This document shows positions 53,292 through 58,555 of a stretch of 64,000 nt of DNA, piece by piece. Numbering within the stretch: the stretch's first letter is position 1; every line of letters begins with the position of its first letter. A model generated the notes under the pieces. The model had not been told where the DNA came from. It searched no databases and saw nothing but the letters and a program-made list of their open reading frames with translations. The translations under genes and the position numbers were made by a program. The stretch comes from Fibrisoma montanum (lineage in GTDB: Bacteria; Bacteroidota; Bacteroidia; Cytophagales; Spirosomataceae), in contig NZ_QXED01000001.1 in assembly GCF_003583365.1 (NCBI RefSeq), positions 930,001-994,000 on the forward strand, read 5' to 3'.

Positions 53292-53509
53292 CAGTGAACC
53301 CTTGACAGTTGGTTAAGGGTAAATATGGCCTTTAAGCGCCGGCCTTGTTCATCGGTCCACTCACAGATGGGTTGCGAATGATCCTCCGGCAAATCTTCTA
53401 TGGCCTGATCTTTAGTTCTCAGCGCAGTCAACCGGTCAAAACCAACAACGGTCATGACCCGGCTATCGGAAGTAAGCATCACGGGGTCTCCAATCTTTAA
53501 CTTTTCCAT
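53291..53509 (-). CDS. small DUF2158 (YodC-like) protein
   Basis: A 72-residue protein beginning LKIGDPVMLTSDSRVMTVVG, which fits the DUF2158/YodC pattern, then ICEWTDEQGRRLKAIF, the paired beta element of the family. No known activity. Base composition resembles the host, and the gene lies just outside the tRNA-Leu island. Before the element arrived it would have been the next gene downstream of tRNA-Leu. Confidence 0.7.
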   Translation of the reverse strand: MEKLKIGDPVMLTSDSRVMTVVGFDRLTALRTKDQAIEDLPEDHSQPICEWTDEQGRRLKAIFTLNQLSRVH

Positions 53510-53557
53510 AGTGTGTTTTTGAATTGAGTGTACGCGGGAAAAAGCTTACCGAGCCGG

Positions 53558-53565
53558 CAAAAATA
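53558..53565 (-). promoter_or_regulatory. -7 element for the DUF2158 gene
   Basis: On the minus strand TATTTTTG matches TAnnTTTG, 48 bases before the ATG at 53509. No -33 TTG was found at a normal distance. Confidence 0.4.
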
Positions 53566-53686
53566 GAACTAATATAATTGCCTACATTATCTAAGGATTA
53601 AAATGAGCTTACTACGTATCGTATGAGCTGACGTTTATAGCGAAGTACACGATTGATTGAAACGGACCGGAGGAGTAGAAAGCAAA

Positions 53687-53737
53687 AAAGCCACTGATTA
53701 TCAGTGGCTTTTTATTTAGAGAGGTACCGGGAACGGG
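53687..53737. repeat. distal att-like copy (hairpin plus tRNA 3' end fragment)
   Basis: A hairpin at 53687-53711 (AAAGCCACTGA / TCAGTGGCTTT) is followed, after TTAGAG, by GTACCGGGAACGGG (53724-53737). The same arrangement stands at 58410-58482 next to tRNA-Leu. The hairpin copies differ by one base in 26, and the 14-base tRNA 3' fragment is exact. The right-hand copy carries about 22 more bases in between. I read this as the original tRNA 3' end left behind when the element inserted. Confidence 0.75.
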
Positions 53738-53788
53738 TACAAAACTAAGGCTTTAAGATGCTCTAAATCAGAATATTATGATTAAAAA

Positions 53789-53811
53789 GTAACAAATAGG
53801 CAACAAAATAG
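53789..53811 (+). repeat. arm-type integrase repeats near the distal end
   Basis: Two overlapping copies of a GTAACAAATAG-like unit (GTAACAAATAGG at 53789-53800, GCAACAAAATAG at 53800-53811). Similar units occur at the tRNA end, as expected for integrase arm sites. Confidence 0.45.
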
Positions 53812-53874
53812 ACTTTGTTGCAAAATTGACGAATAGGCAATAACTTTAAGGAGCTTGACAATCGCAAAATACAT

Positions 53875-53893
53875 ATGCTTTGACACAAAGCAT
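53875..53893. promoter_or_regulatory. perfect 8-bp inverted repeat before the 116-aa gene
   Basis: ATGCTTTG (53875-53882) and CAAAGCAT (53886-53893) are separated by ACA. It lies 60 bases before the ATG at 53954, and may be an operator or a leader hairpin. Confidence 0.4.
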
Positions 53894-53953
53894 AAAGCCT
53901 TTAATTTCCTTTGTAAGCGAGGTATAATTTTTGCATTATTACTTTTACTTAAT

Positions 53954-54304
53954 ATGAGAACGCCATTGAAAGAGCTTCAGGAAGCAGCATACAATAGAAC
54001 TCCAATGTTTAAGAATACACATTTATTGACAGTTGTTAAGCCAGTTGATGAACAAGCCAGTTTAACCGCCATATTTTTTCCGATTCATAAAGATTATCCG
54101 CTTGAAAATTTAGTAGCACATCTACATGTGAAAACAAATGATTATGGTAGTCCATCAGCAGTTTACATTGTAAAAATTGATCTAAATGAGGTTTCGGATA
54201 AAAATAGAGGTTACACATTTACAGCTCATGTCTCCTTTGATGAAATACTTAAATACTTTATTGAAGCTGAGTTTGTTATAAATGACACGGTAAAGCTTAT
54301 ATAA
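53954..54304 (+). CDS. hypothetical protein (116 aa) of the island
   Basis: The ATG at 53954 gives 116 residues; the frame opens at a TTG at 53855, but its leader is not protein-like. The first residues (MRTPLKELQEAAYNRTPMFK) are hydrophilic, then LENLVAHLHVKTNDYGSPSAVYIVKIDLNEV and a closing SFDEILKYFIEAEFVINDTVKLI suggest an alternating alpha/beta small domain. No signal or membrane segment. Codons are AT-rich like the rest of the island. I do not recognise the family. Confidence 0.5.
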   Translation: MRTPLKELQEAAYNRTPMFKNTHLLTVVKPVDEQASLTAIFFPIHKDYPLENLVAHLHVKTNDYGSPSAVYIVKIDLNEVSDKNRGYTFTAHVSFDEILKYFIEAEFVINDTVKLI

Positions 54305-54482
54305 ATGCTATTTGTTAGCAAATTCTCAGATTTAACCTTGGCGAATCACCCACTAACAACCTCATATTTAACAGGTCTTCTTATATAATTGTAAAGCAGG
54401 GTAACAACTATTGCTATTTATTTCAGCTTCTATATACAAATATTTTTATGGTACATTGCCAATTTTCTGACATATAAATTAT

Positions 54483-55235
54483 CTATACTTTTAAGTACTC
54501 ATCTTTTGCAATCTGGTAGCCACTTGCTAAGCTTATATCTGAAAACCCTGCAACGCAAATAACTTCTCGTAGCGCCGCCTTTGCCAAATCCTTACCCCAA
54601 GCACTTTGGACAGATTTCCTTGGTATTTGTATATTGTCTTTATCATTAAATCTAACCTCTATATGCCAATAATTAGCTAATGTTGGATCATGTGCTACAA
54701 AAGTACGAGCCTCAACATCTATTAGTGTGTTTTTCCCCTGTTTAGATAGGTCTATATCCAAGTGTTTTATCAAACTTTCTTGAACTTGATTTTTAGGTTT
54801 TCTGTAAGGAAAAGTTTTATCATTTATACTGCTATACCAAAAGAAAATGGGCATTGAACTAGGGAGGATTTCTATAAATTTATAAATCTTATAGATAGAA
54901 CTTTTTTGACCAGTCCATCTTTTCGCTGCCTCATTCTTTGGGTTGAACTTTATATCCTTAATCCTAAACTTTCCACCTAACAAGTTAAGTGACATATCTA
55001 AAACTTCTTTCTCATGAAATGCATCTTCTCTTAGAAGGCCCAATTCATCAAAGATCTCATTGTAAGGCTTATCTGACCTCCTGACTAACAAGATATTACT
55101 CTTAACTAGACTTAAGTCGATTTTATCCTTAAATCTATTTGAGGGTATTAAAGCTTTAGGATACCTTTCTTCCTTTTTAAGAAATAGATGGTAATGCAAG
55201 AAAGTTGTTAAATCCTTTAACCAATTCATGAACAT
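54483..55235 (-). CDS. unrecognised 250-aa protein, third gene of the island operon
   Basis: A 250-residue soluble protein, ATG at 55235 (another Met two residues later at 55229). It overlaps the end of the middle gene by 59 bp in another frame. Features: an amphipathic start (WLKDLTTFLHYHLFLKKEERY), a Lys-rich middle (KFRIKDIKFNPKNEAAKRWTGQ), ILPSSMPIFFWYSS, IEVRFNDKDN and a C-terminal ISLASGYQIAKDEYLKV. No catalytic motif found. It is AT-rich, with codon use unlike chromosomal neighbours, and is probably cotranscribed with the two upstream genes. Confidence 0.6.
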   Translation of the reverse strand: MFMNWLKDLTTFLHYHLFLKKEERYPKALIPSNRFKDKIDLSLVKSNILLVRRSDKPYNEIFDELGLLREDAFHEKEVLDMSLNLLGGKFRIKDIKFNPKNEAAKRWTGQKSSIYKIYKFIEILPSSMPIFFWYSSINDKTFPYRKPKNQVQESLIKHLDIDLSKQGKNTLIDVEARTFVAHDPTLANYWHIEVRFNDKDNIQIPRKSVQSAWGKDLAKAALREVICVAGFSDISLASGYQIAKDEYLKV

Positions 55236-55689
55236 TTTTACAATCGCTCACTACAAGTTCCCTGTTAAAAAATATGCTAAAAATAACTTGATCTGCATTC
55301 AACTCGTTATCTTTAAGCGGCTTACTGATGATTAATAGCTTTTCTTCGTCAATAAGTAGTTTAAATTTTAATGTAGCATTTGGAGTGATTTCCACTGCTA
55401 CTTTTTCAAACTCAATAGGGACAATCGCAATAATTAAATCGTGGACAAGCTTACTTAGATCTTTATCAACATCCTTTGTATATTTTGGGTATCGACTAAG
55501 CTCTAATTTGACTTTGTCTTTTAAAAACTTAACTCTAGGGTCTACCAAGGTCAATGAGGAGACTTTTGTCATGTTTCCATTAATTGACGGAATGAATGAC
55601 CTTCTTGTAGCAGATATAGTATGGGTACTATCCGCAGATATATTACAGCTTAAGGAAGGTCTTTGACTTCTTGTTGCACAAGCTTCCAT
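55177..55689 (-). CDS. unrecognised 170-aa protein, middle gene of the island operon
   Basis: A 170-residue protein whose ATG (55687-55689) stands one base after the stop of the TIGR04255-like gene. The first about 45 residues are Ser/Thr-rich and polar, then VDPRVKFLKDKVKLELSRYPKYTKDVDKDLSKLVHDLIIAIVPIEF and EITPNATLKFKLLIDEEKLLIISKPL form an alpha/beta domain. It ends NVHELVKGFNNFLALPSIS, overlapping the next gene. No known domain; the tight packing supports a joint role with the flanking genes. Confidence 0.6.
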   Translation of the reverse strand: MEACATRSQRPSLSCNISADSTHTISATRRSFIPSINGNMTKVSSLTLVDPRVKFLKDKVKLELSRYPKYTKDVDKDLSKLVHDLIIAIVPIEFEKVAVEITPNATLKFKLLIDEEKLLIISKPLKDNELNADQVIFSIFFNRELVVSDCKNVHELVKGFNNFLALPSIS

Positions 55690-55690
55690 G

Positions 55691-56407
55691 TTAGTACTTA
55701 ATGGTTAGAGAGTCCAAAAATCCTTTATTTAATATTGAAATAAAAAGTAACTTTTCTTCATGGTGCAAAAAGTCAATCAATTTATATAGTTCATCGCTAG
55801 TGAAATCTGGTAAGCTATTAATCGTAGATATATCTAAGTCAATAACGCAACCTTCTTTTAATTCAGTTTCAGGCATTAATTCTATTTTATTTCCAATTTG
55901 AATTTGATAATCAATATCATTTCTGGAATAAATAAACTTGCCATAAAAGTTAGGATTTTCAATATGACCTAGCTCATCTTCTACCATCAGAAAAGGTTTT
56001 TTTAAAACCTTCTGGATAGCAGACATGTCCGATTTCTCAAAGAAGCTTACATATCTAAGGCCTACTCGTTCCAAGAATAAATTCTCTTTTACATCCTTAA
56101 TTACATCGATTGCTCTTGATATAAATGCAAAATAGTTGCTCCATAAATGGTAGCTTTTTACATTCTCGAAAATAATTGATCTCTCCTCAAGCAATATCAT
56201 AAATTGCTCGTTTTGTAAAATTATCCTCTTTCCTTCAGCCCCCCCCTCAGCCATATCAAAAGTCTCCTGTCGTAACTCCAATGAAGAATTTTTCCAGTAA
56301 GCCAATACTTCATTGAGATAGTTATCTGAGAATCCTTTCTTAAATCTTAGCTCCACAGTGGAGCTAAGAATTGGATTAGGAATTATTTCTTTAGGTAGAC
56401 GCTCCAA
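55691..56407 (-). CDS. TIGR04255-like family protein
   Basis: A 238-residue protein. The start PNPILSSTVELRFKKGFSDNYL (residues 11-32), the middle LFLERVGLRYVSFFE (about 112-126) and the C-terminal IDLDISTIN plus ELYKLIDFLHHEEKLLFISILNKGF correspond to the sporadically distributed family known as TIGR04255, whose members carry a P.xxEAxFELRF-type start and an RxGLRYIN motif. I recognise it by eye only. The biochemical role of the family is unknown. First gene of a three-gene minus-strand operon in the island. Confidence 0.6.
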   Translation of the reverse strand: MERLPKEIIPNPILSSTVELRFKKGFSDNYLNEVLAYWKNSSLELRQETFDMAEGGAEGKRIILQNEQFMILLEERSIIFENVKSYHLWSNYFAFISRAIDVIKDVKENLFLERVGLRYVSFFEKSDMSAIQKVLKKPFLMVEDELGHIENPNFYGKFIYSRNDIDYQIQIGNKIELMPETELKEGCVIDLDISTINSLPDFTSDELYKLIDFLHHEEKLLFISILNKGFLDSLTIKY

Positions 56408-57671
56408 TTTAACAACAGCTATAAGTGGATTGCCAACATATATCTGTCCTCATTCTTTAGAACATGCTATATGTCCACAAACCTACTAGATACAAAACAA
56501 GCTACATCCTATTTACAAAGACAATGAACAACTGGTAAAAAAAGTGATTCAATGGTCTCAAATTATGCATTTTATAGAAAAAGTGCAAAAAATGCCTTAC
56601 CTTAAAAGGGTGTAAACAAAGTTATGGGGTAAAGAAACACAAAATTTGAACTTGCCTATAAAAATTTATAAAAATTATGATTTTTTAAGGTTGTTAGCTT
56701 ATGCCATACTTAGTTGATGTAAACTTTGATAGATTACTAAATAAGTCTATAATTTTAGTGTAACAATACAACAGGCATAACCGCTTCATTTCCAGTTACT
56801 TATGCATTGAAAAGTGTGTCTGACGATTTTTTGATAGCATTGACTAAATCTCAGTGCGGTAAGGTAACATTCACTACTAGGTATTGCAATTGTCCTACTG
56901 TTGGTGTTCTATGGCTTCTTATGCTCAAACCAATTTAATATGGCTCATATCACAGCTGAGCAGTTACAGCATCCTTTTTTAACTCCGGTTATAGGTTAAT
57001 CTTCACAACAACTGATCCATATGCTAATTCTGTCCTAGCGGATGTTATGTCAAGCCACCGCCCCATAATCGAATAAGTTAGGGAATCGTTATTATAAATT
57101 TTTAGGCCATAACCCCATAATGCGATACAATTAATTTATGTATAAATCATTGAATATTAATCGAATAGAACTTATATGAAAGTAAGGGTACCCCCCCACC
57201 AATTTTGACAATGCACACGCGGGGTTATGCTAACGGTCGGGAAAAGAATTTACGCCAAAGAATTTGATCACCCTCCCCTATGTTCAGTTGATAGGTATTC
57301 AATGGCCATTCATTGATCTTCACGGCCTATTCATGGGACTTCCTCAGCGAATAAAAACCGCCTTTAAAATTTGTAAGGTAACTTTTCAGGCCGGGTGTAT
57401 CCCCCCTTTCAAGATTTTGCACACAGATACACAAAACAGGTCTAACGGTCGGAATTAGATTGGACTGAAGAATTGGCTATACCCTCCCCTCCCAATTTTG
57501 ACACACATTTATTTTGGGTGGCTTAGCGGTAGTGAAACTTAGAATTGCCAACGATTAACAATGCCCCTACGCACGTTCTGACCGTGAAAAAACCTTCAGC
57601 GTGTTTCATTTTCTGGCTGATGGCTAAGCGCGTGGCTAAGGGCTTTTATGATTTGCACCGGCTACGCGCTT
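56408..57671. other. AT-rich non-coding part of the island (1264 bp)
   Basis: No credible gene is seen on either strand; the open frames are short and low in coding character. Two minus-strand matches to TAnnTTTG, at 56478-56485 and 56617-56624 (CAAAnnTA on the plus strand), could start the operon at 56407. From 57061, CCCCATAAT-type words occur twice, and degenerate direct repeats lie at 57187-57545. It may hold relics of lost genes. Confidence 0.55.
57187..57545. repeat. degenerate direct repeats with CTAACGGTCGG and CCCTCCCC words
   Basis: Three units follow the same order of words: a C-run, (C)CAATTTTG, CACA, (C)TAACGGTCGG, AAGAATTTG/AAGAATTGG, ACCCTCCCC. Unit one is about 57187-57283, unit two about 57396-57489, unit three is shortened at about 57487-57545. 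TAACGGTCGG occurs exactly at 57231 and 57431 or nearby. The units are too diverged for a recent duplication. Role unknown. Confidence 0.5.
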
Positions 57672-58280
57672 TTACAACTGAACCTCTTCAACGCTCAGAA
57701 CGTCTTTCTGTAGCGTCTTATCCGCCCGTTTGTTCGTAACCTCCTCAGCCGGGTTAGTGGCTATCAACTTATCCCGAACAGCTTGTTTTAATACCTTCTT
57801 GAACCGCGCAAAGTAATCATAAGGCGTTTCCCCGCTCAGGTTCTCGTGATCGTCCAACCAGCTTCTAAAATCAAAGCACAATGATTCGGTTACAGATTTT
57901 AACGATACGTATCCGTTCGTAACTATGTCTCGACTACCAGCAAACTCAGTGAAGTAGCGCAAAGCCCCTTCAAACATTCGTACATCTTTCTTGGTGTAGC
58001 TTTTGATGTACTGCTGAAAGAAGTTAAGAAAGTTAACTTTTGACCGATATGCAGGAGCCTCCCCGTTCTGAGCCGCACCAATGGCTAATTCACGTTTAGC
58101 CCGTATAGTTTCAGCGGTCTTTTGAGTTTCCTTGTTGTGCTGCTTCTCTAATTCGTCTTTTGGCCGTTTGTAGAGGTAAAGTTTAAGAAACTCGTACTTA
58201 CGCCCCTCCTCAGTATAGATGTCAAGGTAAAGGCTGTGTTTTCCGTTACTGAGTAATTTCTTCCTGAGTGCTACTGCCAT
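57672..58280 (-). pseudogene. truncated tyrosine recombinase (N-terminal half only)
   Basis: A 202-residue reading frame starting at 58280. It contains the arm-binding type start (MAVALRKKLLSNGKHSLYLDIYTEEGRKYEFLKLYLYKRP) and the SAM-like core-binding domain (VNFLNFFQQYIKSYTKKDVRMFEGALRYFTEFAG... YDYFARFKKVLKQAVRDKLIATNPAEEV), then stops at VLSVEEVQL just where the catalytic domain should begin. Integrases of this Bacteroidota type have about 400 residues with an R-H-R-Y catalytic half, which I do not find in any frame downstream. It is 189 bp from tRNA-Leu, the normal place for an integrase whose target is the tRNA 3' end. Confidence 0.8.
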
Positions 58281-58326
58281 TTGCGGATAGTTAGCGTTTG
58301 TTTGCCATTGCTAATATAAGCAATAC

Positions 58327-58362
58327 CCAACAAAATCGGGTAACAAATGAGTAACAAAGTAA
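58327..58362 (+). repeat. arm-type integrase repeats near the tRNA end
   Basis: Three units: CCAACAAAATCG (58327-58338), GTAACAAATGAG (58340-58351) and GTAACAAAGTAA (58351-58362). They resemble the pair at 53789-53811 at the other end. Confidence 0.45.
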
Positions 58363-58409
58363 CGCTAACCAACCTCTAAGCAAGAGAAAAACAAAGACTT
58401 TAAAACACA

Positions 58410-58482
58410 AAAGCCACTGGTTATCAGTGGCTTTTACTTTCTCTTGTTTGCTCATTTTAGAGCGTTTTGTACCGGGAACGGG
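58410..58482. repeat. tRNA-proximal att-like copy
   Basis: Hairpin 58410-58434 (AAAGCCACTGG / TCAGTGGCTTT, with T run after it on the minus strand's other side) and the tRNA-Leu 3' end GTACCGGGAACGGG at 58469-58482. It matches 53687-53737 as described there. The hairpin also serves as terminator of tRNA-Leu on the minus strand. Confidence 0.75.
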
Positions 58483-58555
58483 AATCGAACCCGTACGGGC
58501 TTTACGGCCCACAGGATTTTAAGTCCTGCGCGTCTACCTATTCCGCCATCCCGGC
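58470..58555 (-). tRNA. tRNA-Leu (anticodon TAA)
   Basis: An 86-base cloverleaf on the minus strand. Acceptor stem GCCGGGA with TCCCGGT (one G-U pair), T arm CGGG-TTCGATT-CCCG, variable arm of a class II tRNA, and anticodon stem CAGGA/TCCTG around the loop CTTAAAA with TAA in the middle. CCA is not encoded. Its 3' end is the insertion site of the island. Confidence 0.95.

Follow-up and report, generated by a model that had tools for sequence, protein, structure and literature searches.

Two described systems come closest to the locus considered here. CmdTAC is a precedent for the release of a toxin on loss of its chaperone, and as described (PMC11618068) it has three co-encoded proteins acting as effector, neutraliser and control of release. 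Panacea/NetFlax, as described in PMC10440598, pairs one constant family with many different toxins. The operon treated here lies in the window, by which we mean the whole 64,000-nucleotide stretch of Fibrisoma montanum DNA that was analysed. We call its genes C, B and A. It resembles CmdTAC in encoding three proteins together to which the same three roles can be assigned, here by inference. It differs from CmdTAC in having neither a SecB-like protein nor a recognised ADP-ribosyltransferase, and in that gene C comes first. It is like Panacea/NetFlax in that a constant family meets changing partners. That system consists of two genes and a Panacea domain, whereas here there are three genes and both C and A are swapped.

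C is a member of TIGR04255 (NCBIfam sporadTIGR04255), an entry that describes one protein and gives it no function. The four family libraries we searched have this entry for C, but neither its two partners nor any swapping of parts. PemK/MazF-like and HEPN toxins do occupy the third slot beside TIGR04255 in some relatives, but the A of the window is neither. The literature searched, in which subscription journals and bioRxiv are thinly covered, does not name TIGR04255, and broader terms led to other systems only.

Three genes, one known family

Table 1. Features of the operon and of the island that carries it, in positions of the window
Feature	Position	Strand	Remarks
Gene C, TIGR04255 family	55691-56407	-	238 aa, TTG start; proposed sensor/holder
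Gene B, without family	55177-55689	-	170 aa; proposed adaptor or neutraliser
Gene A, without family	54483-55235	-	250 aa; proposed effector
B/A overlap (frames differ)	55177-55235	-	59 nt
Flanking repeat, left copy	53679-53717	.	39 nt, terminator-like palindrome (repeat search)
Flanking repeat, right copy	58402-58440	.	39 nt, 87% identical to left copy (repeat search)
tRNA-Leu(taa)	58469-58555	-	just outside the island (ARAGORN)
Tyrosine-recombinase piece	57672-58280	-	202 aa; Arm-DNA-bind_5 7.4e-14 and Phage_int_SAM_5 6.9e-18 (Pfam)
ORF at the island end opposite the recombinase piece	53855-54304	+	149 aa; no match in Pfam, NCBIfam, PADLOC or PHROG

The ORF list has the three genes where the initial annotation put them. 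They follow each other as C, B and A on the transcribed strand, with a single base (55690) between C and B. This layout is repeated in Spirosoma endophyticum DSM 26130 (locus L006 of genome G142, a 31,759-bp contig), which has the same order, the same one-base gap and an overlap of 77 nt. The one-base gap and the 59-nt overlap bear out the earlier view that the genes form a co-translated operon. Identity between the two species is 49% for C, 43% for B and 37% for A, and the N-termini of the two A proteins have the positions MF-NW-K-L in common. Third codon positions are the most divergent in all three genes (identity at positions 1/2/3 is.63/.74/.44 in C,.60/.68/.43 in B and.58/.61/.41 in A), so none of them is a chance ORF. 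Searches with single sequences found B and A each in two of 200 genomes of the family, the same two, one being Fibrisoma montanum. In a search of contigs A alone had no relative, and a search with two sequences found S. endophyticum only. The window's genome has one TIGR04255-like gene when searched with C.

Gene C contains a run of eight C at 56239-56246 (G on the coding strand), in a part of the protein (EGGAEG) that is variable. When the island was simulated with a first-order Markov model, 45 of 2000 simulations had a run like this. Phase variation by slippage could occur at this run.

The assignment of C holds up well. It scores 61.6 bits against TIGR04255, for which the curated cut-off is 30, and its residues 60-234 align with positions 69-251 of the model. 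It also matches PHROG 5464, a group of unknown function (1.6e-9). A structural model predicted from 8 sequences (pLDDT 77.0, pTM 0.78) has two beta-alpha-beta(3-4)-alpha units, and this tandem of beta-alpha-beta units is presumably TBP-like. The PDB matches of the model include AdoMetDC/prozyme (1.6e-6) and TATA-binding proteins (~1e-4). TM-scores are only ~0.15-0.41 among the best 50 of 1447 matches, so DNA binding is not implied. SecB is absent among the same best 50 of 1447. The best viral fold match is a nameless protein, A0A515MGR4 (2e-7, TM 0.56/0.64).

B and A have no significant family in Pfam, NCBIfam, PADLOC or PHROG, in agreement with their first description as partners of no known family. 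The best weak matches of A are PADLOC mad7 (E 0.0073, 13.3 bits) and NF040908 (E 0.053), and that of B is a PHROG primase (E 0.034). Pfam gives 0 families for A up to E 5, neither PemK/MazF nor HEPN among them, and the four libraries give no known antitoxin domain for B. PADLOC 2.0.0 has no useful match for A, B or C, nor for six TIGR04255/B/A relatives, and the operon is not a member of any anti-phage system named there. Among solved structures nothing significant was found with alignments of the three proteins, of the wider third genes or of the QGD type (a third-gene type described below). No match was found by tblastn of A against plasmids and phages, or with the TIGR04255 protein of locus L018 against phages, and the viral contigs searched with window-type B, C and A contain no relative. 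An AlphaFold2 model of A from two sequences is unusable (pLDDT 35.4).

Profile comparison is more informative about A. To the eye, third genes share the pattern R...AF...S...P..N..H. Window-type A matches 23 other third-slot proteins with p 2.8e-5 over 107 columns, an optimistic value given that the groups were picked by eye; the controls for this comparison are far from significant (C profiles, p 0.46 and 0.6; S_cc, 0.71). Between individual types, window A matches NYPH with p 4.9e-4 and NxxH with 0.0042, NYPH matches NxxH with 1e-5, and the other 18 of 21 pairs, including those with TIGR04255 and B profiles, all have p of at least 0.1. Four columns are nearly invariant in 25 third genes: R52 (23), S82 (23), P184 (23) and H191 (24). 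These genes were chosen by eye for a P-N-H motif, which makes the P and H counts circular in part; R and S did not enter into the choice. By sequence, then, A is a member of a broad superfamily of third genes, the P-x-N-x-x-H proteins, which is nameless in the libraries searched. In relatives B takes the middle place in the triad. Window-type B compared with 14 WDGYGA-type B proteins gives p 0.053, which does not link the two groups convincingly.

Recurrence and exchange of parts

TIGR04255 is found in 8 of 200 genomes of the family and in 24 of 395 genomes of the phylum, 23 of them over the cut-off. It is also found on plasmids (six records with one query and one with another; of seven matches H5 was left out, being identical in identity to H4) and in seven viral contigs. 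The plasmids belong to Deinococcota, Pseudomonadota, Actinomycetota and Cyanobacteriota, to which the window adds Bacteroidota.

The triad recurs with the family. At least one co-directional ORF follows the TIGR04255 gene in 44 of 47 loci, and two follow it in 42. A further tight downstream gene is present in 11 of the 47, and a tight upstream gene also in 11; these two counts serve as the control for the excess of two genes downstream. Tight means here an ORF of at least 75 aa at -150 to +80 nt downstream, or at -60 to +80 nt upstream, and the window qualifies with gaps of +1 and -59. One more locus (L040) was kept outside the 47 for a score under the cut-off, and it has a stop. The exceptions are L014 and L045 with one gene only, L017 with a partial TIGR04255, L044 with an annotated gene of 70 aa that is below the 75-aa limit, and L055, which ends 73 nt downstream. 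The TIGR04255 loci L014 (2122-2723 and the region upstream) and L045 (3992-5453) each have a single tight downstream gene, and that of L045 encodes an HTH protein (HTH_23 9.7e-5, below the cut-off).

The third slot is not always filled by a relative of A. It holds a PemK/MazF-like protein (PF02452) in L026, the one such locus scanned with Pfam (4.1e-13), and by eye L019, L027 and L028 resemble it. It holds a HEPN protein (PF05168) in L043 (4.2e-6) and in L018, where the match of 0.0043 is below the Pfam cut-off. At other TIGR04255 loci the middle gene is HEAT-like and the third gene of SFWR type, or the third gene is of QGD..CD type. We mapped nine third-slot labels, assigned by eye, on a tree of 41 TIGR04255 proteins, from which L017, L020, L028, L036, L038 and L055 were left out as partial, truncated or near copies. 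They require at least 16 changes, where 8 is the least possible and shuffled labels average 27.7; the tree has several long branches and some joins may be false. Starred branches force at least four changes for the QGD type, and the sisters L048 (QGD) and L049 (NxxH), with support 99/83, have different partners. This should not be read as 16 exchanges of unrelated proteins. Four of the nine labels (NYWH, NYPH, NxxH and PRH) are one superfamily, so changes among them do not count as such. PemK and HEPN each form one clade, so there are only two recognisable toxin replacements.

The first slot changes too. It had been proposed as a test that the partners should co-occur with TIGR04255 genes elsewhere. 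For window-type A they do: its model finds six of 200 family genomes, TIGR04255 is upstream in five, and the sixth (G128) cannot be judged as its contig starts 64 bases before B. The tie does not extend to the wider family. A wider third-gene model has 17 matches, spread over 14 of the 395 genomes of the phylum, of which eight are beside TIGR04255 (seven of these are in the model itself) and nine are without it within the stretch examined. B is kept in all nine of the latter. A B-like gene lies upstream with gaps of -116 to +6, apart from L117, where the gap is 152 and B is seemingly cut short. These B proteins match the WDGYGA type with p 8.5e-6 and 7.5e-10 in two profile comparisons. Other proteins accompany the pair at some of these loci. 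L120 has a DUF3467 protein with it (1.4e-6), and in L118 (2484-3128) and L119 (219-890) a nameless helical protein of 214-223 aa precedes it in the place of TIGR04255. A large protein is encoded downstream in five of six loci of genus g146 (L114, L115, L116, L122 and L123), the one of L123 with a TPR_8 match below the cut-off (E 0.00061). Judged from gene content, the set is combinatorial, with both the C and the A positions exchanged.

Two arrangements among these genomes may be recorded here. In genus g146 the B-A pairs are repeated and are followed by a large ORF that runs past the end of the stretch. G467 has three B-A pairs and a separate TIGR04255 locus.

We argue, tentatively and with somewhat less than even confidence, that the operon is an undescribed tripartite toxin or abortive-type module of exchangeable parts. 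In it C would sense or hold, B would act as adaptor or neutraliser, and A would be the effector. The toxin-type partners and the exchange of parts strengthen the view that it is a conflict module. The same evidence can be read by analogy with toxin-antitoxin-chaperone systems. C would then fold or stabilise an antitoxin B, and the toxin A would be freed once C is lost, as might happen if a phage protein titrated C away. The three genes, the known toxin families in the third slot and the interchangeable small middle protein all suit this scenario. It is nevertheless unlikely in our view. C is a TIGR04255 protein with no SecB among its best 50 of 1447 PDB matches, and B has no known antitoxin domain in the four libraries.

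Genomic surroundings and the island

If the tripartite module serves in conflict, one can look for defence genes around its relatives. Within 5 kb of 18 loci, 195 PADLOC families are matched by 121 proteins, against 98 by 140 proteins from 18 control stretches of the same contigs; PADLOC models are redundant, so these are not counts of systems. We did not find a clear PADLOC excess over the controls near these 18 loci. The matches listed for the controls themselves include Cas10, a type II methyltransferase and UvrD-like helicases. Confirmed neighbours are PglZ (L069), a type I restriction subunit (L082) and an OLD-type ATPase (L081). On plasmids, L044 has an annotated abortive-infection gene, L043 has cas6 ~2.5 kb away, and L046 has multiubiquitin, ThiF and DUF6527 genes. 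Among the matches listed, most of the 18 neighbourhoods have no identified defence gene, and many relatives sit among housekeeping genes. A PglZ-like label, given by eye to the gene upstream of L019/L020, has no backing from Pfam (0 families). L020 also has a putative DUF1156-like gene.

These neighbourhoods also bear on a non-suicidal defence complex, in which C, B and A would bind nucleic acid or protein and act on the phage directly. Such a complex would fit a C that is predicted to be a tandem TBP-like protein and the loci that lie near PglZ or restriction genes. We give it a rather small chance, as the low TM-scores of C do not imply DNA binding and the listed matches leave most neighbourhoods without a defence gene.

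The operon of the window lies on a mobile island. GC is 30-46% inside it (~53500-58500) and 51-59% outside, and the two copies of a 39-nt repeat flank it. G018, the only other genome of the genus compared, has the matching flanks 86 bp apart, against 4842 bp in the window, and a single copy of the palindrome. That genome has the empty site of an insert of ~4.7 kb. The initial annotation had described an island borne by a tRNA with the operon alone as cargo. The GC dip, the repeat and the empty site uphold the island. The tRNA must be rejected as the attachment site, for the flanking repeat lies 28 nt outside tRNA-Leu, and the operon is not quite alone because the 149-aa ORF is also inside. The integrase ORF is an N-terminal piece without a catalytic domain, and the frames beyond it are rich in stops. 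The insert is therefore probably immobile by itself, and has probably lost a self-mobility that it once had. Shorter repeats, GTAACAAAT..G..AACAAA, are seen inside both island ends (53789-53810 and 58340-58361) and are possibly arm-type integrase sites.

One can imagine that the operon is an addiction or maintenance module that stabilises this island or other mobile elements and has no phage role. It does take up much of an insert of 4.7 kb whose integrase is truncated, and it has relatives on plasmids and viral contigs. An excised copy of the insert would need an integrase from outside, and swapping at both ends would be explained no less well by the detection of varied triggers, so we consider this scenario improbable. 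An ordinary accessory operon, regulatory or metabolic and unrelated to conflict, would suit the many relatives among housekeeping genes and the lone HTH protein downstream in L045, but it has the slimmest prospects given the sporadic distribution, mobile setting, toxin-type partners and swapping of parts.

A proposed module of exchangeable parts

We favour the tripartite conflict module on account of the tight triad at 42 of 47 loci, the sporadic presence of TIGR04255, the plasmids and viral contigs, the 4.7-kb insert and some defence neighbours. This interpretation, drawn from genes and their arrangement, is plausible. A would be the effector, a small enzyme-like protein that damages or arrests either the cell or the invader. 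B would be its dedicated adaptor or neutraliser. C would serve in recognition or holding: it would keep the B-A pair quiet and free it upon a trigger, most plausibly phage infection. In other words, we infer a toxic A that is restrained by B and C and set off by phage.

A more far-reaching proposal puts the B-A pair at the core of an undescribed and widespread conflict class whose recognition subunits are interchangeable (TIGR04255, DUF3467, helical or TPR-like). A would be new in fold or chemistry and centred on Arg, Ser and His, B would be its obligate partner, and TIGR04255 would also drive other effectors, which together would make a combinatorial sensor-effector network. This is possible, but we would not call it likely.

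The near-invariant R, S and H of A, the PemK/HEPN exchange and the compactness of the operon would make tests of toxicity and of phage resistance direct and cheap. If the tripartite module is real, a family that databases list as no more than sporadic, with no function assigned, would turn out to be the constant part of combinatorial three-gene modules in at least five phyla.
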